Of a DNA stretch of 57,546 nucleotides, positions 707 through 18,570 are shown piece after piece. This stretch comes from Candidatus Limosilactobacillus merdavium (GTDB lineage: Bacteria > Bacillota > Bacilli > Lactobacillales > Lactobacillaceae). Positions within the stretch are counted from its first letter, which is position 1; each line of letters starts with the position of its first letter. A program made the position numbers and the translations under genes. The stretch lies in the NCBI GenBank assembly GCA_018883805.1, contig JAHLFK010000023.1, positions 1 to 57,546 on the forward strand, given 5' to 3'. Below the pieces are notes generated by a model, which was not told the DNA's origin, did no database searches, and worked only from the letters and a program-made list of their open reading frames with translations.

Positions 707-2251
707 ATGTTATTCTTTCTGAACGATAATATTCAGCATAACAAATCAGGAATTGAACATGCGCAAATTAAGCGTCTACATTTGTTCGAAATGTTTGATG
801 AATCCGCTAAAATCGTTACTCGGAAGTATTCAAATGAACTTCATATGGTAACGAAAGAAGCCGGAATTGCTGATGAAAACTTTGTAAACTTATTTGATTA
901 TTTCCAAGAAGCACGAATCTTCCCTCAGAAGGATGTTACTATCAAGGACATTGATATTGATCCATCTTGGAGTCGCAAGGCTGATGGAATTAACTATAAC
1001 TATTATCGTAATGGCAACCGGATTATGTACATCCGCCGTCGAGACGATAAGGAGAAGCATATCATTAACCTGCAGTATTTCGACCATTTTGGCAAACTGC
1101 TTAAGGTTAGTTGGTATGATAACCGTGGTTTCATCTCGGTTGAACAAGTTTACGACTGGGACGGCAATATTGCAACTGAAAACTACCTCCGTCCAGATGG
1201 CACTGTTGCTATTCAACTAGAACACCAAAAGAATAAACGGAATAAGAATGTTGATACTTACCATCTCTTTAACTACAAGGGTCACGACTACCAATTTGCT
1301 AATTTAGATGAATTAACTCGCTTCTTCTATGATGAACTAGTTACTGATCCTGAAATTACTAAGGGTGAACCAGTAGGATTGGTTGTTGACCGGGCATATG
1401 AGGTTGGCTGGTCAGTGCTTCACATGAAACATCGTGTCTTCCGTGCAATGCAACTGCATAACGATCATGTTAACGACAATAGTGACATGCTTCATTCAAC
1501 TTTAAATTACAACTACACTTGGGGATTAAACCACATCAAAGACTGGGATGGTATTATCACCTTGACGCCTCAACAGCAAAAGGATGTTAAGGATCGGTTC
1601 GATAAGTACGGAACTAAGATTTACCGAATTCCAGGACCAATCGTACCAAAAGCTGTCTTAGAGGCTGATCATATTCCATTCGCTAAGCGGACAAAGGATC
1701 AGGTGGTAATGGTTGCCCGGCTTTCACCAGAAAAGCAACAAGATCAATTACTGAAAGCATGGCCACAAGTCTTGGCAAAAGTTCCAACTGCCAAATTAGA
1801 CTTCTGGGGATACGCTAATGATAACTTTGACAAGACTTTAAAGCAGATAGTAAAGGAAGAAAAGCTAGAAAATACTGTTACCTTCCATGGCTACACCAAT
1901 GATCCTAATGCAGTTTACAACGATGCTCAGTTGCTGATCTTGCCTAGTCGAGCTGAAGGGTTGCCATTGTCATTGGTTGAAGCACAATCCCATGGTTTAC
2001 CAATCATTGCAAATGATATTAAGTATGGACCCGCAGACGTTGTAATTGATGGTCAAGATGGGCTCCTAACAACGAATGGTGATATTGATGGCTTAGCTAA
2101 AGCAATCATTAGCCTTCTGACAGATCAAGAAAAGCTTGCTCAATTCAGTGAGAACGCCTATAAGGATAGTGAACGTTACTCTGAACCAAACGTCATGAAG
2201 CTTTGGAACGAATTAGTTGATGATATGAAAGCAAAGGAGGCCGCTAACTAA
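707..2251 (+). CDS. gtfA: Protein O-glycosyltransferase catalytic subunit, GtfA/TagE-like (GT4)
   Basis: The product is a 514-residue protein with an N-terminal DUF1975-type beta-rich domain (about 1-200) and a C-terminal GT-B glycosyltransferase family 4 domain (about 320-510). The donor-site motif E-x7-E is intact (EGLPLSLVE) and is followed by GLPIIANDIKYGP. Genes of this type were once called poly(glycerol-phosphate) alpha-glucosyltransferase (tagE). In Lactobacillus plantarum the tandem pair gtfA/gtfB is required for O-glycosylation of cell-wall proteins such as the autolysin Acm2. The start is supported by AAAGGAGAAAAG upstream. The gene overlaps gtfB by one base, so the two are translationally coupled. 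Likely substrates are Ser/Thr-rich surface proteins such as the adhesins at 11635 and 27309; this link is inferred. A teichoic acid glucosyltransferase role remains the alternative. Confidence 0.85.
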   Translation: MLFFLNDNIQHNKSGIEHAQIKRLHLFEMFDESAKIVTRKYSNELHMVTKEAGIADENFVNLFDYFQEARIFPQKDVTIKDIDIDPSWSRKADGINYNYYRNGNRIMYIRRRDDKEKHIINLQYFDHFGKLLKVSWYDNRGFISVEQVYDWDGNIATENYLRPDGTVAIQLEHQKNKRNKNVDTYHLFNYKGHDYQFANLDELTRFFYDELVTDPEITKGEPVGLVVDRAYEVGWSVLHMKHRVFRAMQLHNDHVNDNSDMLHSTLNYNYTWGLNHIKDWDGIITLTPQQQKDVKDRFDKYGTKIYRIPGPIVPKAVLEADHIPFAKRTKDQVVMVARLSPEKQQDQLLKAWPQVLAKVPTAKLDFWGYANDNFDKTLKQIVKEEKLENTVTFHGYTNDPNAVYNDAQLLILPSRAEGLPLSLVEAQSHGLPIIANDIKYGPADVVIDGQDGLLTTNGDIDGLAKAIISLLTDQEKLAQFSENAYKDSERYSEPNVMKLWNELVDDMKAKEAAN

Positions 2252-3750
2252 TGTTCTTTTTCGTTAACCAATACTTATTGAGCAACGATTCTAGTATTGA
2301 ACACGCTGAAATGAAGCGGCTGAAGCTCTTTAAGGATCACAATGCAGCAGCTAAATTAGTTACTCGGAATTACGATCAAATTATTCATGCGACCCTACAA
2401 CGGTTTGGCTTAACTGATGATCAACTTGTTAACATGTATGACTTCTTTGCGGGTACGACAGATTACACTGGTGAAGGCCTTCATGTTAGTGATCTTGATT
2501 TACCAATTGAATACCAAGTCGGAACTGGAAATAACTACCAAGAAGTCAGGGATGGGGATCGGCTAATTTGTATCGTTTACTTCACTGGAGGAACGATCGG
2601 TCTTGTTAACCACATTGATTGGTTCGACGTTGCCGGAAATATTACCCTTCGACAACAGTATGATCTACGAGGCTTCAAGTCTGTTGACCAATTCTTTGGT
2701 GAAGATGGCCAGATTAGCTTAGAACGTTATTACCGTCCTGACCAAACCCTCTATATGGAACGATACTATGTTAAGTCTGTTCAAAACACCCCGATTAATT
2801 CGTTGAACGTCTTGAAAGACTATAACGGTAAGGATTACTTCTTTGATAGTGAAGAAGATTTGTTTGCTTTCTTCTTGGATGAATTGAATAAGGCTAATGG
2901 AGAAAACAATGTCTTTATCGCCGACCGTCCAGCAATTGCAATCCAACCAGTAATGAACATGCAGACCGCTGCTAAGAAGTACTTATGGATGGCAATGAAC
3001 CATGTTAATGATGGTGACAACCTAAAGAACGGTCCATTGAATGCAATGCTTCAAGGGCCGTTAACTACGAACTTGAACAAGTGGGATGGCATTATCACCA
3101 TGACAGAAGGTCAGGCTGAAATGATTCGGAAACGGATTAATAATAAGAAGCCTGTTTACGCAATTAATGGGGTTCCGGTTAAGACAAATATTCAACGGGC
3201 TGACATGAAATATCGCCTTGCCGGTCAAATTATCTATGTTGGTCGTCTTGGTGAAGATAAGCAGACGGGTAAGTTGATTGATATCTTCATCAATATTCAT
3301 AAGAAGGTACCAAATGCTAAATTGACCCTCTATGGTTATGGTGCGCCTGATGATGTTAATCGTTACAAAAAGCAAGTTGATGATGCCGGCTTGAATGGTA
3401 TCGTAACCTTTGCAGGGTACCAAGTAAACCTTGAAGCAGCTTATAATACTGCCCAATTATTCATGGATACCAGTCGGATCGATGCCCAACCATTAGCAAT
3501 GGGTGAAGCACTGGCTCATGGTGTTCCTGTGGTTACCTATGATTACATGTACGGCCCAAGTGAAATGGTAAAGTCTGGAGTTAATGGTGAACTGATTCCA
3601 TTGAATAGTGCAAAGAAGATGGAAAAAGCGGCCGTAAATATCCTGACAGATCCAACGCTTCTGCAAAAACTAAGTACTGGTGCCTATGATTCATTGGATG
3701 GTATTAGCAATCTTAATACTTGGAAACAATGGGCAGCATTACAAAACTAA
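2251..3750 (+). CDS. gtfB: Partner glycosyltransferase GtfB/TagE-like, probably non-catalytic
   Basis: The product is a 499-residue paralogue of the preceding protein, beginning with the same FFFVNQYLL / SSIEHAEMKRLKLF pattern and ending in a GT-B fold. At the donor site the E-x7-E motif has become DAQPLAMGE, so the first Glu is replaced by Asp and the Gly/Leu context is lost. This fits a regulatory or substrate-binding subunit rather than a second enzyme, as known for streptococcal GtfA-GtfB complexes. The ATG overlaps the gtfA stop (TAATG), giving one transcription and translation unit that ends at a strong terminator. Reading this as the gtfB of L. plantarum-type O-glycosylation is based on pairing and length; activity is not shown. 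Confidence 0.82.
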   Translation: MFFFVNQYLLSNDSSIEHAEMKRLKLFKDHNAAAKLVTRNYDQIIHATLQRFGLTDDQLVNMYDFFAGTTDYTGEGLHVSDLDLPIEYQVGTGNNYQEVRDGDRLICIVYFTGGTIGLVNHIDWFDVAGNITLRQQYDLRGFKSVDQFFGEDGQISLERYYRPDQTLYMERYYVKSVQNTPINSLNVLKDYNGKDYFFDSEEDLFAFFLDELNKANGENNVFIADRPAIAIQPVMNMQTAAKKYLWMAMNHVNDGDNLKNGPLNAMLQGPLTTNLNKWDGIITMTEGQAEMIRKRINNKKPVYAINGVPVKTNIQRADMKYRLAGQIIYVGRLGEDKQTGKLIDIFINIHKKVPNAKLTLYGYGAPDDVNRYKKQVDDAGLNGIVTFAGYQVNLEAAYNTAQLFMDTSRIDAQPLAMGEALAHGVPVVTYDYMYGPSEMVKSGVNGELIPLNSAKKMEKAAVNILTDPTLLQKLSTGAYDSLDGISNLNTWKQWAALQN

Positions 3751-5318: not shown

Positions 5319-5357
5319 GATTGTGAAATATTAATCAATAATGAGGAAGTGACATAC

Positions 5358-5924
5358 TTGAAAATTGCTGCAATTGCCGGTTCAAACGCTAACCATTCTT
5401 ATAATCGGATGCTACTAGAGTTTATGGCTCAACATTTTAAGGATCAAGATCAAATTGACGTGATCGATATTCGCCAAGTTCCAATGTTCAGTGAAAACTT
5501 TAAGGGTGATGTCCCAGAAGTTATCCAAGACATTGATCAGCGGATTAAGGCTGCTGATGCAGTTATTATTGCTAGCCCAGAATACAACCACTCAATTACT
5601 TCAGCATTGAAGAGTATCGTTGAATGGCTCTCATACAGTGTTCACCCACTTGCTGGCAAGCCTGTTATGACAATCGGTGCTTCAACTCATGATCAGGGTG
5701 CTTCACGGTCACAAGTACAATTACGTGATATCCTGATTTCACCAGGAATCAATGCTTTTGTCTACCAGGGAGACGAATTCTTTATGAGTAATGTTGCCGA
5801 ATTAATGGACAAGGATGGCAATGTCACTGATGAAGGAACAATTAGCTTCCTTGAAAAATGCATGTCTGGTTTCCGCTACTTTGCCCAGGCAATCGATCAA
5901 ATGGAAAAGGAGATGAAGAAGTAA
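5358..5924 (+). CDS. NADPH-dependent FMN reductase family protein
   Basis: The product is a flavodoxin-like reductase of 188 residues. The N-terminal phosphate-loop pattern is AGSNANHSYNR, followed by ASPEYNHSITSALKSIVEWL and GKPVMTIGAS, as in NADPH:FMN reductase/azoreductase proteins. I chose the TTG at 5358 because AGGAAG (5344-5349) is placed 8 bases before it. The in-frame GTG at 5349 overlaps that ribosome binding site. The family moves electrons from NAD(P)H to flavin or quinone-type acceptors in the cytosol. It overlaps the next gene by one base and is followed by a paralogue, so the two may form a heteromer or hand over electrons; this is inference. Confidence 0.85.
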   Translation: MKIAAIAGSNANHSYNRMLLEFMAQHFKDQDQIDVIDIRQVPMFSENFKGDVPEVIQDIDQRIKAADAVIIASPEYNHSITSALKSIVEWLSYSVHPLAGKPVMTIGASTHDQGASRSQVQLRDILISPGINAFVYQGDEFFMSNVAELMDKDGNVTDEGTISFLEKCMSGFRYFAQAIDQMEKEMKK

Positions 5925-7180
5925 TGATGAAAATTCTTGCTTTCGCAGGTACTGACGCAGATTTCTCATATAACCGTTTGCTATTACGGTTCATGAAGAA
6001 GCACTTTAAGCAAATGGCAGATATCGAAATCTACGAAGTCGGTAAGTTACCACCATTTAGTGTTGATACACCTTTATCTGAACAAACAGAAGTCTGGAAA
6101 TTAAAGCAAAAGGTTAAGGAAGCGGACGGGTTAGTCTTTTCTACTCCTGAATACGACCACGGGATTCCTGCTGTTCTTAAATCTGCGATCGAATGGCTTT
6201 CTTATCACACTAATGTTATGTCTAAGAAGCCTGCAATGATCGTTGGGGTTGCTTACGGTCGTCAAGCATCAGCCCGTTCCCAAGTTCAAATGCGGCAAAT
6301 CTTGATTTCACCTGACTGCAATACAAACTTATTGCCAGGTAACGAAGTCTTGATTGGTAATGTTCGGAACACATTTGCTAAGGATGGTCGGTTGATTGAT
6401 CAAGCAGCAATCAATGATCTTGAACAAAGTTTTGAACACTTCATCGAATATATTCAAATTTTCCAAGATGTAGATAAGGAGGGTCTCCAAATGGCCGTTA
6501 AACAACCAACGATCAGTGATGCGTACATTAACTTCCCTACTGGTCGTTTGACATTAAAAGAAGTTCAACAAATTTTCAGCACAATTCCATTTGAAATTGA
6601 TCTGATCGATAATACTGATCACTTTGCATGGTACTCAGACAAGCCAAATCGGGAACACGTTCGGAACACCGCTTCTCTCGGTGAAACTGTCCAAGAATGC
6701 CACCCACCAATGGCTGTTCCTGCTGTAATGAGCATTATCAACAGCTTCCGTGAAGGAAAGAAGGATGTTGTAACCCGTCCATTATGGATGAATGGTCACC
6801 GTTCATTGATTCAATACTATGCATTGCGAGACATTAATGGTCATTACCTTGGTACAATCGAATTCACTGGTAGTGTTGAATACATTTTGAACCTCTTTGA
6901 AAATGGTGCTTGGGGCAAGGATGCCACTACTGGTGCATCAAAGAACACTAACAATGCTCCAGCTACAGAAACAGAAGAGGATACTGCAGTTGATGCTTCA
7001 ACTGGTGCATCAGAAAGTACTAGTGAAGAAGAAACTACTACCAACAACACCGCAGCAGTTGATACTGATAACGTAAGTGAAGATACGGATGCCACTACTG
7101 GCGCCTCTGAAACTGGAAGTGTCGATGCTGAAGACGACACAGCAGATGCATCTACTGGTGCGTCAGAAAATGAAAACTAA
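5924..7180 (+). CDS. FMN reductase-PAS fusion with four C-terminal covalent-FMN (flavinylation) motifs
   Basis: The product has 418 residues in three parts. Residues 1-190 are a second NADPH-dependent FMN reductase domain (AGTDADFSYNR, STPEYDHGIPAVLKSAIEWL). Residues about 205-325 resemble the PAS domain found at the end of DUF438 proteins (PAS_10), with GRLTLKEVQQI and QECHPPMAV. Residues 326-418 are an acidic Thr/Ser-rich tail holding four copies of D-A-[TS]-T-G-A-S at 333-339, 357-363, 389-395 and 408-414. This matches the ApbE target consensus D-x-x-[ST]-G-A-[TS], in which FMN is joined by a phosphoester to the last residue. There is no signal peptide or membrane segment, so the protein should be cytosolic. 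The next gene is apbE, whose start lies inside the last motif. The start ATG overlaps the upstream stop and has AAGGAGA before it. A longer in-frame start at 5858 would lie inside the upstream gene and is not supported. Confidence 0.82.
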   Translation: MMKILAFAGTDADFSYNRLLLRFMKKHFKQMADIEIYEVGKLPPFSVDTPLSEQTEVWKLKQKVKEADGLVFSTPEYDHGIPAVLKSAIEWLSYHTNVMSKKPAMIVGVAYGRQASARSQVQMRQILISPDCNTNLLPGNEVLIGNVRNTFAKDGRLIDQAAINDLEQSFEHFIEYIQIFQDVDKEGLQMAVKQPTISDAYINFPTGRLTLKEVQQIFSTIPFEIDLIDNTDHFAWYSDKPNREHVRNTASLGETVQECHPPMAVPAVMSIINSFREGKKDVVTRPLWMNGHRSLIQYYALRDINGHYLGTIEFTGSVEYILNLFENGAWGKDATTGASKNTNNAPATETEEDTAVDASTGASESTSEEETTTNNTAAVDTDNVSEDTDATTGASETGSVDAEDDTADASTGASENEN

Positions 7181-8096
7181 TAATTTAGTTGGACAACGGC
7201 ATTCCATGGTTCACCATGCCTTGGGAACGCGGATTGTCCTAACTATTTATGGGGATCAATATTACCCAGTACTAGGAGAGTCAATGCGATTAATCGATGA
7301 ATATGAAGATCGACTAACCGTTAATCGTGACGAATCAGAAGTGATGGATATTAATCACGCTGCAGGGCGGATTCCCAAAATTGTCTCACCTTCAACTTAC
7401 GAATTGATTAAGTTAGCGGTCAAATATAGTCGTCAGAATTTTGGCTTTAATGCGCTGATTGGTCCGTTAGTTAAGTTATGGAAAATTGGGTTTAAAGGGG
7501 CAAATGTTCCTACTGATGCCGAGATTCAAGAGCGGTTGAAATTGATTGATCCTTATAAGGTTATCCTGGATGATGATAATCGGACTGTCTTCTTGGAAGA
7601 AGAGGGGATGGAACTTGATCTTGGCGGGATTGCTAAGGGATACATTGCCGATCGGATTCGGGATCGTTGGATAAAAAAAGGTGTCCCTGCAGGAATTATT
7701 AACCTTGGGGGCAACCTCCTGTTTGTCGGTAAGTCGCCGCGGCGTGAAGATGGTCAATGGGTGATTGGAGTTCAGGATCCGCGCCTTAAACGTGGTGAGG
7801 ACGTTGAAACTGTGAGAGAACCCGAATGTTCTGCTGTTACTTCAGGGATCTATGAGCGTTTCCTTGAAGTCAACGGGAAGAAATACCATCACCTGCTAGA
7901 TCCCCGAACCGGTTATCCTCTTCAAACAGATCTATCCAGTGTGACTGTTTTTACAAAGCAGTCTGTGATGGGAGAAATTGAGGCTAAACGACTCTTCTTT
8001 AATGGCACACCAATTAAGGATTGGGATAAGCAGCCAAGTAACCTTGGCGCTGTTTTCATTCGTCAAGATGGAACGGTTGAGAATGTGAGAAATTAA
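7170..8096 (+). CDS. apbE: FAD:protein FMN transferase (ApbE), cytosolic form
   Basis: The product is a 308-residue ApbE family flavin transferase. Family motifs are ALGTRIVLTIYG at the start, DLGGIAKGYIADRI and INLGGNLLFVG in the middle, and HHLLDPRTGYP near residue 240, which takes part in Mg-FAD binding. It uses FAD and Mg2+ to attach FMN covalently to Thr/Ser in short D-x-x-[ST]-G-A-[TS] motifs. Many ApbE proteins are exported lipoproteins; this one has no signal peptide or lipobox. The ATG at 7170 overlaps the end of the upstream gene by 11 bases; a second ATG at 7206 is possible and neither has a strong ribosome binding site. The obvious substrate is the four-motif protein just upstream. 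The IS1182 copy begins 17 bases after the stop. Confidence 0.9.
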   Translation: MKTNNLVGQRHSMVHHALGTRIVLTIYGDQYYPVLGESMRLIDEYEDRLTVNRDESEVMDINHAAGRIPKIVSPSTYELIKLAVKYSRQNFGFNALIGPLVKLWKIGFKGANVPTDAEIQERLKLIDPYKVILDDDNRTVFLEEEGMELDLGGIAKGYIADRIRDRWIKKGVPAGIINLGGNLLFVGKSPRREDGQWVIGVQDPRLKRGEDVETVREPECSAVTSGIYERFLEVNGKKYHHLLDPRTGYPLQTDLSSVTVFTKQSVMGEIEAKRLFFNGTPIKDWDKQPSNLGAVFIRQDGTVENVRN

Positions 8097-8180: not shown

Positions 8181-9674
8181 GGTTCTTCGTCAAGAAGTAC
8201 TGACAGAATAATTGAATATTCTTTTTAAGCAGCTCGGGCCATTTTATTGGCACGGGCTGTTTGCTTAGTTTTCCAGTTAATCGCAATATAGGTATTTGGT
8301 AACGAAATAAGAATTCGAACCCTAAAATTAAAGAAGTTTCTAAAACCATAAGCAGTTCGCTTAATGACCTTAATCTTATTGTTAGTTCCCTCAACTGGCC
8401 CATTGGTGTAATGATGGTAGCGGAAACTAGCTATAATTTCTTGTTTATGAGAGCGTAACGTCCTTTGGACCTTTTGGAGTGCTTTTGGTAGTTCTGTTAA
8501 CTTTACAGTTAAAAGCTGTTTTAATTCTTGGTTACTTTTATGGTTAATCGCTAAAATAAGGTCTTGATAGTATGAATATGCTTGTTTGAGTTGATCATCA
8601 AAGTCTAATAGACGATGGACAACTTCAACGTCGGTTAGTTGGGCATAACCAAAGTTACGTCGTGACCAGTAATTGTCGTATTTTAATTGACTAGCGGGAG
8701 TTAAAAGCAGTTTCCAGAAGCGTTTTAAAGCTCGCCATTCATGAGAACCCTTGCCAGCACGATTCATTGCTTTAACCCTAATTTGATTAAGAGCGCGGTA
8801 AGCTTGCGCGACCACATGAAAGTGGTCGGCAATAATTAATGCATTCGGGAAAAGATCATGAATTAGTTGACGGTAAGGAGTATATAGGTCTACTGTAACC
8901 GTCTGAACAGATAATCGCGCGGCACGATCATAACGAAGAAAATAATTTCTGAGGTATGAGTTACGACGAGAGAGAATAATGTCGAGGGTTCGTTTATTTT
9001 CAATATTCATCAAAAGCATACTCATTCCGCTGGGAGCGAAGCGTCCAGACTTGAAATCATCAAAGGCAATATGACGAGGAAGCCAATGGTAATTAGGCTT
9101 AAAGGTTTGATCAAGACAGTTAATAACACGTCTAACCGTACCATCTGAAACGTCAAAGTCTTTAGCTAGGTCTATTTGTGATTGATTCTTAGTCAGTTCC
9201 ATCATTAACCTTTGCTTAATTGCTTTTGAAATATGGTCATGATGTTTAACGTCTTTGACTTCGGCTAATCTAGTTACTGTTTTCGGACATTCTTTTGAAG
9301 GCTTGCAGAGGTATTTTTGTTTTTGAATTGACCAAATAGTTCGCTCGTAATGTAAACTAGGCCCTAAGTAATTAACTTCTTTAAAGCCATTTTTAACCAT
9401 CAAACGCCCACAAATAGGGCAATGCATGGGATAGCTTTGGATTAGGTGGACAACGATTTGCTTCTTTTAATCTTCAATTGCCTCAACATTAAGATTTTGA
9501 TTTAATTCAAGGTGTGGATCTTTAATTCCTAAAGCAGTTCTGATAGACTTATTCATGAAAGATGGTCCTTTCTAAAACGAAGACGGGGTCCAACCATCTT
9601 TCGTTTTTTTGTTTAAATTTTAAAATAAAATAAGCACTGATGTAAAACTCATCAGTACTTAAAATTGTAGAACC
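8181..9674 (-). mobile_element. ISL3-family insertion sequence (1494 bp) with complete ends
   Basis: The left end begins GGTTCTTCGTCAAGAAGTAC and the right end, read inward, begins GGTTCTACAATTTTAAGTAC. The ends share GGTTCT at the tip and AAGTACTGA inside. Both are bordered by the direct repeat TTTTTGAT. A hairpin with arms AACGAA and TTCGTT, containing GACGGGGTCCAACCATC, lies upstream of its transposase at about 9577-9606 and could block incoming transcription. The single transposase gene has a nonsense codon near its 5' end, so the copy may be inactive or depend on a second start. Confidence 0.92.
8225..9556 (-). pseudogene. ISL3-family transposase with in-frame stop at codon 30
   Basis: Reading from the ATG at 9556 gives MNKSIRTALGIKDPHLELN and further residues up to NVEAIED, then TAA at 9469-9467. 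The same frame continues KKQIVVHLIQSYPMHCPICG and stays open to 8225. The main part has a zinc-finger-like CPICG near its start, an HTH (SQIDLAKDFDVSDGTVRR), and the DDE residues in AFDDFKSG, TVDLYTPY, DHFHV and GPVEGTNNKIK. Initiation at the internal ATG (9427) would give a 400-residue protein lacking the first 43 residues of the full frame. I class it as a probable pseudogene caused by a single nonsense change; reinitiation is possible. Confidence 0.8.
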
Positions 9675-11304
9675 TTTTTGATTTAATCAAAAATTGTAGT
9701 TCGCATTTTTGGTTATTTACTAAAAAGGGTCTTAATTGGTTGATCATTTTACCCAATTTCGTTAAGTTCAATGCCATTAAGGTTAATCCGACATCATTTT
9801 CCACAGCCCGTTGGCCGCGCAAATGAGTTCGGCGTACGCCAAAATCCCTCTTCATGCGACCAAAGACTGGTTCAACGTCGAACTTGCGTCGACGATAGAT
9901 CATCTTACCTTCATCGCTTGAGAGGGTCTCTTTGACTTTTGCTTTGTAATAATTCCAAGTTGGATTAACCTGGATGTAGCGCTGACGCTTACCTGGCGTT
10001 TTAGCTAACTGATCTAACTCTTCTGATGATTGATGTGTGTCGGCACGATAGAGTTTAAGATCGCGCTTAAATCCATACTTATCAGTTCGTTTACTGTAGC
10101 GATAAAAACTGAAGCGAACGCCTAAATGATCAATATAGTAGTCATCTTCGGCATTGTACTGCCAATTCTGAGGTTTTGTTGGATCATTTTTGAACTTACG
10201 CTTCTGCTCTTTTTGATAGGTGGTGTATGGAATGAGTGGTTGCTTATCGAATTGGTCAAGCAGTGTTGTGTAATTATATTCACTACCGTAACCAGCATCA
10301 GCTACCACGTGTGTAAAGAAATCCAAGCCATGGAATTGCTTAAGAAATGGCACTAAAGTCCTAGTATCAGTAGGATTGGAAAATAAAGCATAATCAAGGA
10401 CAAACTGATTATGCGTGGCAATCTGAAGATTATATCCGGGTTTGAGTTCTCGGTTCATCATCGGATCTTCTTTCATGCACATAAAAGTTGCGTCGTGGTC
10501 TGTTTTCGAAAAGCTATTTCGTCCTTGAAAAATATCTTCGACACGTTCATATTTTTTAGCCCGTGGAATTAAGTCTTCTCTCAGTTGACGACGAAGCTTC
10601 TTTAGAAAACGTCGCCGACGTTTTCTAACTGAACCACCTTTAATTATTTTCGGCTCCTGTTTAATGGCTTCGTCTAGATTAGTGATTTCTTTTTCCACTT
10701 CTTCAGCCATTAATTCCATACCGTCGATAGATTCAATCATTTCTGGTTTCATCTCTTTGATGACTTGCTTTTCTACTAACTCATCATAAATACTAGCCGT
10801 CTTTTCTCTCAACTTAGCGTGATACTTTTCTATTGCCCGACGCCAAGTAAACGAGTACTTATTAGCATCCGCTTCAACCTTAGTGCCATCAATAAAGACT
10901 GCATCATTTTGAATTAGCCCATGGTCCGTAAGAGCCATAGTAAAGTAAACAAAGGTACGTTTTATTAAGTTCCTGGCGTGCTCACTCCGTCGAAAGTTAT
11001 TGATGGTATGGTAACTGTATGAATGATCACGGGCTAACCATCGCATTGGTAAGTTTTCTTCTAACAAGGTTTCTATTTTCCGGCCAGAATAAGTTTGACG
11101 AGAGTACGCAAACAACAGAATTTTTAACATCAGTGCAGGGTGAGAAAGTGGGCGGCCGGTGACGGCCACGTTCTCTTCTAACAAAACCTCTTGTGGAATG
11201 GAATCGACAAAAGTATCAATTAACCGAACCAGATGATTTTTTGGCACATTGTAGTCATAATTTAGTACGAATTCTGTTTGTCCCGTGATATAATTTTGAT
11301 ACAT
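9652..11304 (-). CDS. IS1182-family transposase with C-terminus altered by ISL3 insertion
   Basis: The product is a 550-residue DDE transposase. The N-terminal domain begins MYQNYITGQTEFVLNYDYNV and includes GRPLSHPALMLKILLFAYSR. The catalytic region includes DAVFIDGTKVEADANKYSF, VADAGYGSEYN and a C-terminal RRKFDVEPVFGRMKRDFG. After CELQFLIKSK the frame runs into the inverted repeat of the ISL3-family element, which supplies RFYNFKY and the TGA stop in place of the native IIVRIFLVRS. The core is intact, so activity may survive, although the transposon end beyond it is split. AAAGGAGCG precedes the ATG. Confidence 0.88.
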   Translation of the reverse strand: MYQNYITGQTEFVLNYDYNVPKNHLVRLIDTFVDSIPQEVLLEENVAVTGRPLSHPALMLKILLFAYSRQTYSGRKIETLLEENLPMRWLARDHSYSYHTINNFRRSEHARNLIKRTFVYFTMALTDHGLIQNDAVFIDGTKVEADANKYSFTWRRAIEKYHAKLREKTASIYDELVEKQVIKEMKPEMIESIDGMELMAEEVEKEITNLDEAIKQEPKIIKGGSVRKRRRRFLKKLRRQLREDLIPRAKKYERVEDIFQGRNSFSKTDHDATFMCMKEDPMMNRELKPGYNLQIATHNQFVLDYALFSNPTDTRTLVPFLKQFHGLDFFTHVVADAGYGSEYNYTTLLDQFDKQPLIPYTTYQKEQKRKFKNDPTKPQNWQYNAEDDYYIDHLGVRFSFYRYSKRTDKYGFKRDLKLYRADTHQSSEELDQLAKTPGKRQRYIQVNPTWNYYKAKVKETLSSDEGKMIYRRRKFDVEPVFGRMKRDFGVRRTHLRGQRAVENDVGLTLMALNLTKLGKMINQLRPFLVNNQKCELQFLIKSKRFYNFKY

Positions 11305-11634: not shown

Positions 11635-14600
11635 ATATTATCAAGTAATAACCGAAATGAACAGTTTCGCAAGCAAGAACCGAAAAAGCAACGTTTTACA
11701 ATTAAAAAGCTAACGGTCGGGGTTGCCTCTGTTCTTATAGGTTTCACTTTCATGGGAATGAGTGTGTCAGCTGATACCACTACAGGAACTAGTGATGTTA
11801 ATAATCAGACTGAATCAACTCAATCCAATACAGATTCTATTCAAACTGATACTACAACACTGAATAGTAGTAATAAATCTGCTAGTTCAATGCAAAACAC
11901 AGGTGCAACAGCTGCAGAACAGGAAGATCAAAACAGTGCTACTGACAATGCAATTGCAAACCAACAAGCTAATGCTACTGCTTTGCAGACATCACTTGTT
12001 GCTGTACCAAACACTGAAGCTCAAAAGACTTTACGTGGTACTCAGACAGAAGAAGTCAGCGATTGGCAAGGCTTTGTCAATGCAATGAATAACAAGAATG
12101 TTGGTACCATTAACTTGACTGGCGATATTAATGTAACTAACAAGGCCAATGGAACTACTCGGCCAAATCCAGTAGCAAACCCGGGCAAAATTCAGCTTAC
12201 TGGTTCAAATATTTCTGGTGGATTAGATATTGATGGTCAAGGTCACACAATTAATTTTGGTCAGCATTACCTAAGTTTTACTACTAAAAATCAAAAAGAT
12301 TCTAATCCTTGGAATATTGCTTTCAAGAATTTAACTATTAAAGCTGATGGTTACTCTTCTGGCACGTACACTGATGCGTTCAGCCCAATTTATATGGGTG
12401 GAGACGACATCGATACTAAATTACTTGCCCAAAATAAAGTAACATTTGAAAACGTTAATGCAAATATTAAACATGGTGGTTTTTATGTTACTACCATGGC
12501 TCAAGTTACCGGTGATGATCCATACACCACTGTTACCTTTAAGGGTAATAACAATATTACCTGTGAAGAAATTCAAGCTAAGCAATTTATTAGTTCACAA
12601 TATAATTACTCTAGTGCAGTAATGGCTTCACATATTATCTTTGCTAATGGCAATACTACTTTCAATGTAAGTAGCGCAAAGACTAACAATGGTACTAACG
12701 CCGGTGGAAATATTTTACGTGCTAAGATTGAAAATAGTAATGATGCTGATTCGGCAGTTGTTGTAGCAGAAGGTGCTACTGTTAACTTAAACGGTAAGTC
12801 TACTGATGTAAAAGGGATCTTAACTAACAGTGCTATTACTGGTGATGTTGTTGTTGATGGTACCTTAAATGCCAATATGGCTGATGGTCACTCAATGGCT
12901 ATCTGGGCAGGTAACTTAAATATTGGTAAGAATGGTACTGTTGATATCACTACTAGCCAAAATAATGATGGTGGTAGTACAAATGCTACTGGAGACTATA
13001 ATGGTTTCCACTTTGCACCAATTAGTTTGGGTGTTGGATTTGCCCAAAACTTGTCAAACGCTGATTCTAACACATTAACTGTTGATGGTAAATTAATTGT
13101 TAAACGTGTGGGTAATGATAACAAATCTACTTCACCATTGATTTCTTTTGGTTCGGGTGCTTCTGCATTACAAAAGGGTACTTACACATTAAACGTTAAC
13201 GATGGTGCAACATTAGATTTACAAGATGCTGCTCAATCTTCGCGTGCTGGTAAATTCAATAATACCCCATTCGTTGGATTAATTAGTATGTTTGGTGGTG
13301 GTACTAAAGGTGGTAAGACCTCTAACGCACTTAATATTTCCAATCCTGCCTATGTCAACTTACAACGTACAGGTAGTTTAACCGATTCACTACTTCGTCT
13401 TGAAAATATCAACAACTCTGTAAGTATTAATGGTGTCGACGGTAGTGCTGTTCCAGTTGCTCAATGGGATGAAGCTAACTATACCAATACTCCTTCTTAC
13501 TACTGGTACTTGAAGAGTGAAAAAACTCAAAACAACTGGGGTGACAATGCTGTTTCTGGATTTGCTCCTAAGAATGCCACTAGTGGTACAACCAATAAAG
13601 ATGGTCAAAAACTGATCAACTCTAACGGGAATGTTGAGTTGGCAGCCAACCAAGCTGGTGAAGGTGGCTATGCTTACGTTAATGGTGAGATTAGCGAAGG
13701 AACACCAACTGACGGGGTTAAGTACCAAACTCCATATTTGAACCAATTCTTGAATACTTTCAACTACTGGACTCCACAACGGTTGGCAATGGGCTCTAAC
13801 TTGGAAGATGTTGCTAAACCAACTGATGCTGAAAAATACCAACCAACTGTTAAAACAATTAACGGTACCACTAAACAAACTTTAGCTGACTTAACTGCTA
13901 AAGATGGTATTAGTGGATTGATGGATCAAAATGGCAACACTACTGATGATTTATCACCAATCCAAAGTGTAACTTGGTACGATCCATCAACTGATGCTAC
14001 AGATTGGGCTAACACTATGAAGGATAAGGATGGTAACACACTTACTGCTCCTACTAACCCAACAGGTAACTTAAAGACTACTGATACTTCAGCATGGGCA
14101 AAGGTAACATATACTGACGGTACAGTTGATTTTGCAAATATTCCTTTGAAGGTTACCAATAAGACTACGGCTGATGAATACACTCCATCATACAAGCCAG
14201 TCAATGTTGAACAAGGCAAGAGTGCAACTTCAGATCCAAGCTTCACCGATGTAAATAATAAGCCAGCTGCTGCTCCTGCTGGTACTACTTTTGCTAAGGG
14301 AACAGATGCACCAGATTGGGCAATAATTGATCAATCAACAGGTGAAGTAACAGTAGCTCCAGGTACTGATGTAACTCCAAAAGATTACAGTATTCCAGTA
14401 ACTGTAACTTACTCAGACGGCTCAACTGATACAGTTAATGTTCCAGTAACTGTTACTAAGAAAACTCCTGATGCTGATAAGTACACTCCAGAAGGCAAAC
14501 CAGTTTCAACTGAAGTAGGTACTCTTCCAGATGCTAAGGACGGCATTAAGAATCCTGACACCTTACCTGCTACATACACTTGGAAAGAAGAACCAGATGT

Positions 14601-17600
14601 AACTACTCCAGGTAGTAAGCCAGCAACTGTAGTTGTAACTTACCCAGATGGATCAAAGGATGAAGTTCATACTAATGTAATTGTTGATGCAAAACCAGAA
14701 ATTAAGCCAATTACCACTACTGTTAACGGTACTCCAGCAGCAACTGATGGTATTGCTAACTTGAACAACGGTGGTACTACTCCAGTTGATGGTTACCCAT
14801 CAGGTGCAACTTGGACTACTGCTCCAGATACTTCAAAACCTGGTGCTACTACTGGTACTGCTGAAGTAACTTACCCAGATGGCACTAAGCAAACTGTAAC
14901 TATCCCAGTTGCTGTCAACGATGACCATGATGTAACTATCATTGATGACCAAGGTCACACTATTAGTCTTCATGCTAATGATGTAATTACTCACAAGACT
15001 TCAGAAACCAACGTTATTGGCCAACCTGTAGTTCAAAGCTTCAAGTTTAGCTACTACCAAGGTGGTCAAAACTACAGCAAGCCTTACATCTACACTTTGA
15101 ACGCAGCTAAGGGTGTTTATGAACTTACTCAAAAGGGTCAAAACCCAGAAGGTGTAACTGTAAATGTTCCAGAAAGCATTCCAGTAAGTGACATTAAGGT
15201 AAGCTGGGTACCAGCAGGCACTACCTTGTTTGGCGATGTAAAGGGTAATGGTCAACCAACTAGTGTGGCAGGTGCTGACAATGGCGGTACTGAAACAATC
15301 AAGTACACTGGTAACGACAATGCTCAAGCTAACGGCTATCCTAAGTACGTTGCAGTTGTAGACAGCTCAAGCGTTAACTGGCCAATCTTTGGTAAGGGTC
15401 CAGCAGCTATGAACCCATTCCCATCAGTTTACATTTACGGTGCAAAGGCTAATGGTACTATTCCAAGTGTTAACTCTGATACTACTGATGTAAAGAAGGA
15501 CTTAGGGAAAGCTGAGAACTATGTAGATACTAGCGATTTAACCGTTGCTAATAACTCAGCTGTATCATCAGTTGAATGGCAAACAACACCTAATTTGAGT
15601 AAGGCAGATGCTAAGGCTCCAGCAACAGTAAGAATTAACTTTACTGATGGAAGTCACCTTGATATCCCAGTATCTGTAAACGTAATTAAGGTTGATCAAG
15701 GTATTGATAATAAGGATGATCGTGACCTTTACCGTGACATCACTCGTACAATTACTGTTGAAGGTCAAGATCAACCAGTTGTTCAAGACGTAATCTACAG
15801 CCGTGCAAAGAGCACTGATTTATCTAAGCCAGCTGGTTCACAAGTAACTTACACTGACTGGGTAGCTGCTAAGGATAAAGATGGCAATACTGTAACTAAC
15901 TTCCCACAATTAGAAGTAACTAAGCCAGGCTATACTGCTACTGCAACTGGTGCAACTATTGAAACTGTTAATGGTAAGCAATACGTACCAGCTTCAGCAA
16001 CAGTTACACCGGATTCACAAGACGAAACTGTCAACGTAACTTACACTGCTAATGAACATACTCAAGTAATTAATTACGTTGATAAAGATGGTAATAAAGT
16101 AGGCGATCCTTACAATGTTACTGGTAAGACCGGTGAAACTGTTACTGTTGACGTGCCAGGACATGTACCAACTAACTGGACATTAGTTCCAGGACAAAAA
16201 TATGCAAGTTCAGTTACATTCGGTTCAGATAATCCACAACCATTAACTTATACTGTTGAACACAAGACTGAAGTTGTACCTGTTGACAAGAACAACAAGG
16301 ATACCTACCGTGAAATCACTCAAACTATCGAGAAAATTCCAGCAGGCAAGACTGAAGCTGACAAGACTAATGTAAGAACAACTACAGTTACATTCCAACG
16401 TACAGGTACTAAGGACTTAGTAACTAACAAGATTACTTGGAATGCATGGCAAGGGCCAAAAGGATCAGTAGACAAAGATGGTAAGGTAACTTACACTATT
16501 CCTGTTTACGATGTAAAACAAGAAAAAGGCTATGACAGCTATGTAGACGGTACTAAGGCTACACAAGTTCCAACTGAAGATGTAAATGTTGACTCAGCAA
16601 ATACTACTTTCACTATTACTTATGTAAAGCAAGGCTCAACTCCAGTAAATTACGATCCAGCAAGAGATGATATGTCTGTAACTCGTACTATTAATTACGA
16701 CGTCCCAGCAGGACATGATGCTATTGCACCAGTAACTCAAACAGTTGAATACACTCGTAATGTAGATGGTGTTGCAGGTTATCAAGATCCAGTAACAGGT
16801 CACATTACTTGGAACGCATGGCACGTTAAGAGTGGTAATTCCGAATTTGCCTCAACTTCTGTTGAACAAATTAAAGGCTACGACTCATATGTAAATGGAA
16901 CTAAGACAACTGAAGTTCCTTCAGCTGCAGTGACTGAAGAAAACGGTGTTCCACAAAATGGAACAAGCGTAACAGTAAGTTACCAAAAGCAAGATTCAAC
17001 TCCAGTACCATATAAACCAGGTAAAGATGGCGTTAACGACAACATGAATAAGTACGTAACTCGTACTATTACTGCTCACATCCCTAAATCCGATCCACAA
17101 ACCCAAGTACAAATTGTTAAGTTTACACGTGAAGATAAAGATGGCAATGCCGGATACCAAGATCCAGTAACTGGTGATATTACTTGGAACGCATGGCATG
17201 TAGTTAACGGTACTGAAGGAACTGGAACTTGGAGCGAATACACAGCACCAGTTGTCGATGGCTACAAGGCATCTCAAGATAGTGTTGCAGCACAAACTGT
17301 AACTCCAGAAACCAAGAATGCTAATGTGGATATTACTTACACGCAAACTGACGCAGGCAAGTACACACCACAAGGTCAAGATGTCACTACTAAGGTTGGT
17401 GTTGTTCCAGATGCCGAAAAGGGTATTTCTAATACTAAGACTTTACCAGAAGGTACAACATACACCTGGAAGGAAACTCCAGATGTAACAACTGCAGGCG
17501 ACAAGCCAGCTACAGTAGTCGTTACCTACCCAGACGGTTCTAAGGATGAAGTACCAGTAACAGTTCATGTCACGAACCCAAGTACACCAACGAACCCAAC

Positions 17601-18570
17601 TGATGCGGATAAGTACACACCAAAGGGCCAAGATATCACCACTAAGGTTGGTGAAGTACCAGGTGCTGAAAAGGGTATTTCCAACACAAGCGACTTACCA
17701 AAAGGCACAACATACACTTGGAAGGAAACACCAGATGTAACGACACCAGGCGATAAGCCAGCTACAGTAGTGGTAACCTACCCAGATGGTTCCAAGGATG
17801 AAGTTCCGGTAACAGTTCATGTCACGAATCCAACTACTCCAACTAATCCAACGGACGCAGATAAGTACACTCCACAAGGTCAAGATGTCAACACTAAGAC
17901 TGGTGTAGTACCAGATCCAGCAGAAGGCATTAAGAACAAGGGTGACTTACCAAATGGTACAAAGTACACTTGGAAAGAGACTCCAGATGTAACGACACCA
18001 GGCGACAAGCCAGCTACAGTAGTCGTAACTTACCCAGACGGTTCCAAGGATGAAGTTCCGGTAACAGTTCATGTCACGAATCCAACTACTCCAACTAATC
18101 CAACCGATGCGGACAAGAATACACCACAAGGTCAGGATATTCACACTAATACCGGAGTAGTTCCAAACCCAGCGGATGGTATTAAGAACAAGGGTGATTT
18201 ACCAGATGGCACTAAGTACACTTGGAAGGAAACTCCAGATGTAACTACCCCAGGTGAAGTAACTGGTATTATTGTGGTAACCTACCCAGATGGTTCAAAG
18301 GATGAAGTTAGCGTTACTATTATAGTAACTAACCCAACAGAACCAACAAATAATGGTAATTCCACACCACAAGGTCAGAATACCCAGAATACTACGGTTG
18401 TTACAAATGGCGTAAATGGTGTAAGTACCACTTCGGAGAACAATACCAAGAAGGCTAACACGTTGCCACAAACTGGTAATAAGCAAAATTCAGCTGCTAT
18501 CGCTGGACTTGCTCTTACTGGATTCGCTGCAATGTTTGGTCTCGGTGGTTCTAAGAAGAAGGAAAAATAG
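11635..18570 (+). CDS. Giant YSIRK/LPQTG adhesin with Rib and mucin-binding repeats; apparent ATA start codon
   Basis: The frame codes for about 2311 residues. AGGAGGAG is followed nine bases later by ATA at 11635, then the normal start of such proteins (LSSNNRNEQFRKQEPKKQR) and the YSIRK-type signal (FTIKKLTVGVASVLIGF, about 19-36) with cleavage near SVSAD. No ATG, GTG or TTG exists in frame before 11752, which lies after the signal's hydrophobic core. Order of parts: Ser/Thr/Gln-rich segment (40-135); beta-helix adhesive region like the pectate-lyase-like adhesive domain (about 138-610); Rib-like domains (about 720-1090); a unique domain (about 1100-1270); MUB-B2 and MucBP-like domains (about 1350-1905); four near-identical 84-residue Rib repeats (1908-2237); LPQTG and a membrane/charged tail. 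It should be wall-anchored by sortase and bind host glycans or mucus. With ATA as start, expression may be very low; an internal start would not be exported. Confidence 0.85.
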   Translation: MLSSNNRNEQFRKQEPKKQRFTIKKLTVGVASVLIGFTFMGMSVSADTTTGTSDVNNQTESTQSNTDSIQTDTTTLNSSNKSASSMQNTGATAAEQEDQNSATDNAIANQQANATALQTSLVAVPNTEAQKTLRGTQTEEVSDWQGFVNAMNNKNVGTINLTGDINVTNKANGTTRPNPVANPGKIQLTGSNISGGLDIDGQGHTINFGQHYLSFTTKNQKDSNPWNIAFKNLTIKADGYSSGTYTDAFSPIYMGGDDIDTKLLAQNKVTFENVNANIKHGGFYVTTMAQVTGDDPYTTVTFKGNNNITCEEIQAKQFISSQYNYSSAVMASHIIFANGNTTFNVSSAKTNNGTNAGGNILRAKIENSNDADSAVVVAEGATVNLNGKSTDVKGILTNSAITGDVVVDGTLNANMADGHSMAIWAGNLNIGKNGTVDITTSQNNDGGSTNATGDYNGFHFAPISLGVGFAQNLSNADSNTLTVDGKLIVKRVGNDNKSTSPLISFGSGASALQKGTYTLNVNDGATLDLQDAAQSSRAGKFNNTPFVGLISMFGGGTKGGKTSNALNISNPAYVNLQRTGSLTDSLLRLENINNSVSINGVDGSAVPVAQWDEANYTNTPSYYWYLKSEKTQNNWGDNAVSGFAPKNATSGTTNKDGQKLINSNGNVELAANQAGEGGYAYVNGEISEGTPTDGVKYQTPYLNQFLNTFNYWTPQRLAMGSNLEDVAKPTDAEKYQPTVKTINGTTKQTLADLTAKDGISGLMDQNGNTTDDLSPIQSVTWYDPSTDATDWANTMKDKDGNTLTAPTNPTGNLKTTDTSAWAKVTYTDGTVDFANIPLKVTNKTTADEYTPSYKPVNVEQGKSATSDPSFTDVNNKPAAAPAGTTFAKGTDAPDWAIIDQSTGEVTVAPGTDVTPKDYSIPVTVTYSDGSTDTVNVPVTVTKKTPDADKYTPEGKPVSTEVGTLPDAKDGIKNPDTLPATYTWKEEPDVTTPGSKPATVVVTYPDGSKDEVHTNVIVDAKPEIKPITTTVNGTPAATDGIANLNNGGTTPVDGYPSGATWTTAPDTSKPGATTGTAEVTYPDGTKQTVTIPVAVNDDHDVTIIDDQGHTISLHANDVITHKTSETNVIGQPVVQSFKFSYYQGGQNYSKPYIYTLNAAKGVYELTQKGQNPEGVTVNVPESIPVSDIKVSWVPAGTTLFGDVKGNGQPTSVAGADNGGTETIKYTGNDNAQANGYPKYVAVVDSSSVNWPIFGKGPAAMNPFPSVYIYGAKANGTIPSVNSDTTDVKKDLGKAENYVDTSDLTVANNSAVSSVEWQTTPNLSKADAKAPATVRINFTDGSHLDIPVSVNVIKVDQGIDNKDDRDLYRDITRTITVEGQDQPVVQDVIYSRAKSTDLSKPAGSQVTYTDWVAAKDKDGNTVTNFPQLEVTKPGYTATATGATIETVNGKQYVPASATVTPDSQDETVNVTYTANEHTQVINYVDKDGNKVGDPYNVTGKTGETVTVDVPGHVPTNWTLVPGQKYASSVTFGSDNPQPLTYTVEHKTEVVPVDKNNKDTYREITQTIEKIPAGKTEADKTNVRTTTVTFQRTGTKDLVTNKITWNAWQGPKGSVDKDGKVTYTIPVYDVKQEKGYDSYVDGTKATQVPTEDVNVDSANTTFTITYVKQGSTPVNYDPARDDMSVTRTINYDVPAGHDAIAPVTQTVEYTRNVDGVAGYQDPVTGHITWNAWHVKSGNSEFASTSVEQIKGYDSYVNGTKTTEVPSAAVTEENGVPQNGTSVTVSYQKQDSTPVPYKPGKDGVNDNMNKYVTRTITAHIPKSDPQTQVQIVKFTREDKDGNAGYQDPVTGDITWNAWHVVNGTEGTGTWSEYTAPVVDGYKASQDSVAAQTVTPETKNANVDITYTQTDAGKYTPQGQDVTTKVGVVPDAEKGISNTKTLPEGTTYTWKETPDVTTAGDKPATVVVTYPDGSKDEVPVTVHVTNPSTPTNPTDADKYTPKGQDITTKVGEVPGAEKGISNTSDLPKGTTYTWKETPDVTTPGDKPATVVVTYPDGSKDEVPVTVHVTNPTTPTNPTDADKYTPQGQDVNTKTGVVPDPAEGIKNKGDLPNGTKYTWKETPDVTTPGDKPATVVVTYPDGSKDEVPVTVHVTNPTTPTNPTDADKNTPQGQDIHTNTGVVPNPADGIKNKGDLPDGTKYTWKETPDVTTPGEVTGIIVVTYPDGSKDEVSVTIIVTNPTEPTNNGNSTPQGQNTQNTTVVTNGVNGVSTTSENNTKKANTLPQTGNKQNSAAIAGLALTGFAAMFGLGGSKKKEK
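17356..18345 (+). repeat. Four tandem 252-bp Rib-domain repeats
   Basis: Repeat starts at 17356, 17608, 17860 and 18112 are exactly 252 bases apart (84 codons). Each encodes the pattern DKYTPQGQD, then KYTWKETPDVTTPGDKPA and VVVTYPDGSKDEVPV. DNA identity is high over long stretches, so unequal recombination could change the copy number. The last copy is the most diverged (GEVTGIIVVTYPDGSKDEVS). A more distant copy occurs near 14470. Confidence 0.9.

Follow-up and report, generated by a model that had tools for sequence, protein, structure and literature searches.

In a stretch of 57,546 nucleotides from Candidatus Limosilactobacillus merdavium (contig JAHLFK010000023.1), hereafter called the window, we find a cassette of three genes. 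They encode a stand-alone FMN_red protein (gene 1), a protein that combines an FMN_red domain and a PAS_10 domain with a C-terminal tail (gene 2), and ApbE, a flavin adenine dinucleotide (FAD):protein flavin mononucleotide (FMN) transferase (gene 3). Judging from its sequence and those of its relatives, the tail of gene 2 is selected as an array of ApbE motifs and not as filler, because arrays of this size do not appear when the tail is shuffled and because the motifs are conserved far above the linkers. The tail array connects two literatures that have so far been separate, one on flavinylated FMN_red proteins and one on an FMN_red/PAS system that forms hydrogen peroxide (H2O2).

In 200,000 shuffles of the 90 residues of the window tail, a single motif turned up in 2,685, two motifs in 12 and three or more in none. 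In seven fused orthologues of the same genus the identity is 0.871 in the motif columns compared to 0.298 in the linkers and 0.789 in the folded core, so the outcome that the original prediction had named as speaking against it, namely motifs kept no better than linkers, is not seen. Shuffles and conservation together rule out chance low complexity as the origin of the tail. Across 127 tails of at least 20 residues we counted 289 strict motifs, whereas shuffling gives a mean of 0.51 and a maximum of 3; these counts start past the end of the PAS model and for some tails leave out the first motif (three of the four copies are counted in the window). In 114 of 125 tails no more than 8 residues separate the last copy from the C-terminus, and a C-terminal position is the one labelled best according to the available text of a review of ApbE (PMC12052999). 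Among 126 distinct tails, 69 heptamers depart from the motif at a single position. This lone mismatch falls at position 5 in 47 of them (7.3 expected from shuffles; 39 are changes of Gly to Ser), at position 1 in 10, at position 6 in 8 and at position 4 in 4, and it is never found at position 7, the acceptor (0/69). Codon choice varies among the four motif copies of gene 2. We consider it very probable that this tail is flavinylated.

The presence of the tail follows that of ApbE. We sampled 201 genomes of the family, counting by genome and without correction for kinship. A PAS-tail protein occurs in 76 of them; a strong ApbE match is present in every one of these 76, compared to 29 of the other 125. 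In the seven genera in which some genomes are without ApbE, no tail is found without ApbE (exact stratified P 2.9e-5, strata transcribed by hand). The tail genomes include two that were added by hand (G179 and G198), while two others (G098 and G192) are counted as tail-less although each has a match of PAS-tail length, which was not inspected. The tie between tail and ApbE that had been proposed from the window alone is seen across the sampled genomes. The genome search suggested at the same time, for the FMN_red-PAS_10-motif architecture beside apbE, yielded 57 fused homologues outside the window, with ApbE within 5 kb in at least 25.

A second FMN_red gene lies within 5 kb of 55 of these 57 fused proteins, and gene 1 is likely to be the partner subunit of gene 2. 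Relaxed motif copies (D-x-x-x-[GS]-A-[ST]) number two to seven in 56 of the fused proteins and one in the remaining protein; two proteins (L120 and L121, from G156 and G011) carry seven relaxed copies, six of which are strict. PAS-tail proteins also exist in a free form without FMN_red (27 in 25 sampled genomes), and ApbE is found within 5 kb of at least 10 of the 27 genes. All of these neighbour counts are lower bounds, since some loci have only 1.5 kb of flank. Two loci (L089 and L162) have PAS-tail genes that have lost their tail or carry it out of frame. Outside the family, a wider sample of the order gave three or four relaxed copies in 13/13 loci and two in 6/6 further loci, and a draw of 299 genomes across the class gave 20 matches at E 1e-100, all of which belong to the same order.

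The three overlapping genes and the four D-A-[ST]-T-G-A-S copies had been described in the original prediction, and open reading frames and Pfam place them exactly where they had been reported (Table 1). Genes 1 and 2 overlap by one base and genes 2 and 3 by 11 bases. The ApbE domain of gene 3 scores 234.6 bits against a curated Pfam cut-off of 25.6, and gene 3 is the only ApbE match in the assembly to which the window belongs (82% complete, 1.36 Mb). The nearest solved sequences to the PAS_10 region are 3cax_A (E 5.5e-16) and 2qkp_A (E 9.7e-12), both uncharacterised proteins. FMN_bind has no Pfam match in gene 2 or anywhere in the genome of the window. No export signal was seen in ApbE by a heuristic for hydrophobic stretches and lipoboxes together with inspection by eye, nor in gene 2 by eye, as the original prediction had also held, and the proteins of the cassette appear from their sequences to be cytosolic. 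A lipobox is present in 1 of 60 related ApbE frames (L102), some of which are cut by the ends of the locus or begin too early.

Table 1. Coordinates of the cassette in the window and of two further motif-bearing proteins in the same assembly.
Feature	Position	Strand	Details
Gene 1, stand-alone FMN_red protein	5358..5924	+	188 aa, TTG start; Pfam FMN_red E 6.9e-34
Gene 2, FMN_red-PAS_10-tail protein	5924..7180	+	418 aa, ATG start; open reading frame and Pfam
Gene 2 FMN_red domain	5927..6361	+	Pfam E 1.2e-31; residues 4-148 in frame begun at 5918
Gene 2 PAS_10 domain	6566..6865	+	Pfam E 2.6e-14
Motif copy 1, DATTGAS, gene 2 residues 333-339	6920..6940	+	frame translation
Motif copy 2, DASTGAS, gene 2 residues 357-363	6992..7012	+	frame translation
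Motif copy 3, DATTGAS, gene 2 residues 389-395	7088..7108	+	frame translation
Motif copy 4, DASTGAS, gene 2 residues 408-414	7145..7165	+	frame translation
Gene 3, ApbE, FAD:protein FMN transferase	7170..8096	+	308 aa, ATG start; Pfam ApbE E 1.9e-69
Two HesB-like motif-ending proteins	L219:1488-1892, L212:1476-1853	-	own-genome contigs C38, C25

The free PAS-tail proteins lead to a system whose heterodimer, NADH oxidation and H2O2 formation have been published for Lactobacillus johnsonii only. There, two FMN_red proteins, FRedA and FRedB, need each other, as the heterodimer alone binds FMN, oxidises reduced nicotinamide adenine dinucleotide (NADH) and forms H2O2, while the PAS protein LjPAS slows their assembly; the available text also notes PAS-FMN_red fusions in other lactobacilli (Valladares 2015, PMC4500961). 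The LjPAS-type protein of L. johnsonii ATCC 33200 (locus L128) carries DATTGAT, DTATGAS and DTSSGAS at its C-terminus. In one genome scan, at least one strict motif was present in 38 of 39 Lactobacillus-type PAS loci, which include two records under other genus names that are perhaps mislabelled (L152 and L160), and the exception is a shortened gene. The PAS protein of one sampled genome (G037) is identical to the L. johnsonii protein in 243 of 244 residues. On one strand this genome has a run of genes for FRedA (178 amino acids), FRedB (184 amino acids), MupG, a tyrosine phosphatase-like protein and ApbE, in which the gap of 12 bp between FRedA and FRedB matches that reported for L. johnsonii (PMC4500961). 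Free PAS-tail genes lie near a pyruvate oxidase gene in 5 of 27 cases and near an FAD synthetase gene in 6 of 27. Four loci (L042, L096, L097 and L124) have free PAS-tail genes near genes for pyruvate oxidase, ApbE and FAD synthetase, the maker of the ApbE substrate. The published LjPAS was produced in E. coli, and the FRedA purified with it lacked yellow colour (PMC4500961). This agrees with an LjPAS that was probably not flavinylated. E. coli is not known to have a cytosolic ApbE.

We propose that the products of genes 1 and 2 assemble into a cytosolic flavin reductase driven by NADH or its phosphorylated form (NAD(P)H), probably an FMN_red heterodimer that builds shared FMN sites, and that the cytosolic ApbE would attach FMN to the last serine in each motif of the tail, four in all. 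This would make the tail a flexible arm on a PAS anchor; its tethered flavins may be reduced at the reductase site and then pass their electrons on to a flavoenzyme that is soluble. For some relatives the most likely acceptor would be an adjacent FAD-type fumarate reductase (FlavC), and in the presence of oxygen H2O2 would be formed by these reduced flavins. We give this scheme as a whole about an even chance. That the tail works as a tethered electron carrier seems somewhat probable to us, and fumarate reductase is put forward only tentatively as the physiological acceptor for the version in the window.

The case for FlavC comes from a minority of loci. Four of the 57 fused genes (those of G005, G154, G101 and G013) have FlavC within 5 kb, and six of the 57 have fumarase nearby. 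In two further genomes (G138 and G056) a single run contains an FMN_red protein ending in DATTGAS, ApbE, a PAS protein without motif, LysR, fumarase, FlavC and a transporter, and another genome (G087) has the same components in one run, with a motif-bearing FMN_red protein next to ApbE, PAS, LysR, fumarase, FlavC and the transporter. At loci L093 and L094, where apbE and fumarase-FlavC belong to the run, it is FMN_red that bears the motif (DATTGAS), at its extreme C-terminus, and not the adjoining PAS protein. In the genome of the window, contig C1 carries genes for fumarase, FlavC (FAD_binding_2, 464 amino acids, no FMN_bind), a dicarboxylate-type transporter and LysR; Pfam does not find FMN_bind and FAD_binding_2 in one chain in gene 2, and FAD_binding_2 is found in this separate protein.

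Several observations weigh against the proposed scheme. The cassette of the window is not beside FlavC, which is located elsewhere in its genome. FlavC is present in 56 of the 76 tail genomes compared to 48 of the 125 others, a moderate co-occurrence that is not corrected for kinship and on account of which FlavC cannot be the general acceptor; a universal role is ruled out by its absence from 20 of the 76 tail genomes at E 1e-100. Five FlavC operons have only a plain FMN_red without a tail, so FlavC may not need the tail. Pyruvate oxidase and FAD synthetase near the free PAS-tail genes point to another acceptor or to oxygen. All four acceptor residues of gene 2 are serine, which is less well used by ApbE than threonine (PMC12052999, available text). 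Finally, LjPAS was reported to slow the reductase and not to help it (PMC4500961), in experiments with protein from E. coli that probably lacked the covalent flavin. Fumarate is likely to be the acceptor in some species and not in general.

The same proteins could instead work as an NADH oxidase that consumes oxygen and is regulated by its PAS arm, as has been proposed for L. johnsonii; here the reductase forms H2O2, PAS tunes assembly and the tail flavins either speed oxygen reduction or have a tuning role. The formation of H2O2 by FRedA/FRedB and the halving of the starting rate when LjPAS is preincubated with FRedB (PMC4500961) are consistent with such an oxidase, and so is pyruvate oxidase, also an oxygen-using flavoenzyme, near 5 of the 27 free PAS-tail genes. 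However, the available text of the same paper describes LjPAS as without effect after the heterodimer has formed and a two-hybrid test as seeing none, and its expression data run counter to such an oxidase, with the transcript down 3-fold on aeration in the results, although the abstract gives it as repressed under anaerobic conditions (PMC4500961). The two to seven covalent sites and the linkage to the fumarate operon would also be left unexplained, and we regard this alternative as unlikely. Another explanation is that one tail motif anchors FMN in the FMN_red pocket against loss while the other copies are spares; structural models in the available text of Huang 2024 (PMC11334425) place tail sites near the flavin site of FMN_red and are used there to argue for this origin. 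The 27 PAS-tail proteins without FMN_red do not fit such an anchor, nor do the 38 of 39 named Lactobacillus loci, also without FMN_red, that have at least one strict motif, nor the HesB-like proteins described below, which lack an FMN_red domain and also end in the motif, and it seems to us quite unlikely. PAS domains often act as sensors, and a flavinylated PAS protein could sense the redox state and signal it; Pfam finds no output domain in gene 2 or in three free forms, and we hold this to be improbable. An acidic low-complexity tail that carries look-alike motifs and no flavin would agree with the deviation of some copies from the motif, but the shuffles, the motif conservation, the co-occurrence with ApbE and an acceptor position that is never the lone mismatch make it very improbable.

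Returning to the tail as an ApbE-loaded carrier, gene 2 may not be the only substrate. A strict-motif scan of the whole assembly gave 13 DNA matches compared to 2 in a reversed control, and the only open frames that contain the motif are gene 2, with four sites, and those of two small proteins (135 and 126 amino acids) with one site each, whose C-termini are ...DASTGASEQWK and ...DATTGASRNFEEFWE. Neither protein matches any Pfam or NCBIfam model. Their likeness to HesB/YadR/YfhF comes from relatives that match Fe-S_biosyn weakly, below the cut-off, and from plasmid relatives annotated as such. Among 50 HesB-like proteins, those from the genus of the window have a strict motif in 9 of 16 cases and a near motif in 5 of 16, compared to 3 of 26 in other ApbE-bearing genomes and 0 of 8 in genomes without a strong ApbE; these are counts and not rates, because longer frames were fetched by preference. 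We consider the two HesB-like proteins of the window's genome candidate further substrates in the cytosol.

The motif itself drifts in some lineages. Eleven tails have no strict motif and two or more relaxed copies, with ApbE within 5 kb in 8 of 11 and in the genome in 11 of 11. In a tree of 51 ApbE proteins, ten rows from relaxed-tail genomes fall inside one clade of 17 rows (support 100/100), with five label changes compared to a shuffle average of 9.3, a clustering that kinship alone could produce. In two genomes of the L. fermentum group (G005 and G154; the latter, of the same genus as the window, has a fumarase and a FlavC 100% and 99% identical to those of a Limosilactobacillus fermentum record) position 4 is Ala in all copies of the tail motif, as it is in the lone near-motif of one HesB-like protein from each genome, DVNAAAT and DANAGAT. 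Ala at position 4 is shared by two unrelated protein families in both genomes (L067, L071, L258 and L259). A motif with Gly5 changed to Ala keeps about half of its flavinylation (PMC12052999, available text). The genome of the window also has a short PAS_10 protein of 162 amino acids (L085:4470-4958, minus strand, contig C69) that ends in DGVSAAS, and its relatives in the same genus end in DAITSAS and DGVSSAS.

It is an evenly balanced possibility that a single ApbE in the cytosol modifies a whole flavinylome, made up of unrelated proteins with nothing in common but a C-terminal tail: reductase-PAS arrays, HesB-like proteins and free PAS proteins of the LjPAS kind. The enzyme would then co-evolve with the tail towards D-x-x-x-S-A-S or, in both substrate families of the L. 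fermentum group, towards D-x-x-A-x-A-[ST], and tail FMNs would be a plug-in electron carrier of Lactobacillales, including the L. johnsonii H2O2 system. Most work on covalent flavins concerns locations outside the cytosol. Should the tails be loaded, soluble proteins bearing several tethered FMNs would be present in many lactobacilli and in their streptococcus-like and enterococcus-like relatives, and the assays of the well-cited L. johnsonii H2O2 system would have lacked its covalent cofactor. Such a flavinylome would also widen the recognition motif of ApbE and lengthen the list of its targets, which would be useful for flavin tagging.

Elsewhere in the window, two transposase genes of the ISL3 and DDE_Tnp_1 types follow right after apbE on the minus strand (8225-11304). 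The regions 707-3750 and 11752-18570 contain two genes for glycosyltransferases, of which the second matches Asp1 weakly, and a 2272-residue repeat-rich protein with a C-terminal LPQTG and hydrophobic stretch. A weak palindrome-like sequence before gene 1 (5319-5342) resembles a Rex operator, and the best site in the window scores 16 of 20 against the Rex consensus, which is not significant; about 1 in 300 shuffles reaches 16 and four of six relatives in the same genus score only 12-13, and for these reasons no Rex operator is claimed.

The original prediction knew of no named system of this form. Its selected, ApbE-linked tail and the cytosolic look of the proteins are upheld, and the absence of a name is not, since Huang 2024 (PMC11334425) and Valladares 2015 (PMC4500961) cover the two halves. 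We found no paper that links the two in the open-licence literature, a scope that subscription papers mostly lie outside. New here, beside that link, are the three motifs on the L. johnsonii PAS protein, the common occurrence of tails with two to seven copies, the reductase-less PAS-tail proteins, the shift to D-x-x-x-S-A-S in some tails together with one ApbE clade, and the two motif-ending HesB-like proteins in the genome of the window. What makes the cassette of interest is this bridge between two bodies of work, together with tails of several copies and a possible flavinylome in the cytosol.

In the available text of Huang 2024 (PMC11334425), FMN_red proteins with a C-terminal extension of one to two motifs near apbE are described, mostly from Firmicutes, and those of L. 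lactis and L. taiwanensis were flavinylated by their own ApbE on co-expression in E. coli, for which the Ser/Thr of the motif was required. Gene 2 resembles this class in its FMN_red domain, motif-bearing C-terminal extension and adjoining apbE, and differs in having four motifs. The word PAS is absent from that text, whereas the one Lactococcus homologue of the class that we examined, which may differ from their accession, has PAS_10, two motifs and an adjacent apbE. The window resembles FRedA/FRedB-LjPAS (PMC4500961) in its two adjacent FMN_red chains plus PAS; unlike in the available text of Valladares 2015, where neither ApbE nor the word covalent is mentioned, the PAS part carries motifs and apbE lies in the FRedA/FRedB gene run. 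Multi-flavinylated proteins as described by Meheust 2021 (PMC8238504, available text) use FMN_bind domains and are exported. Gene 2 is predicted to share with them several covalent FMN sites per chain, but its motifs lie in a disordered tail, in a genome without FMN_bind. The cytosolic NADH:fumarate reductase of Klebsiella (PMC12052999, available text) is similar in its cytosolic ApbE and soluble reductase, whereas the covalent FMN carrier of the window is not FMN_bind and the FAD reductase is a chain of its own. Lastly, in the hydroxycinnamate reductase HcrA/HcrB of L. plantarum (PMC10295242, available text) a small FMN_red partner likewise stabilises a larger FMN_red-containing chain, although HcrB has a reductase domain of its own and no PAS-tail.

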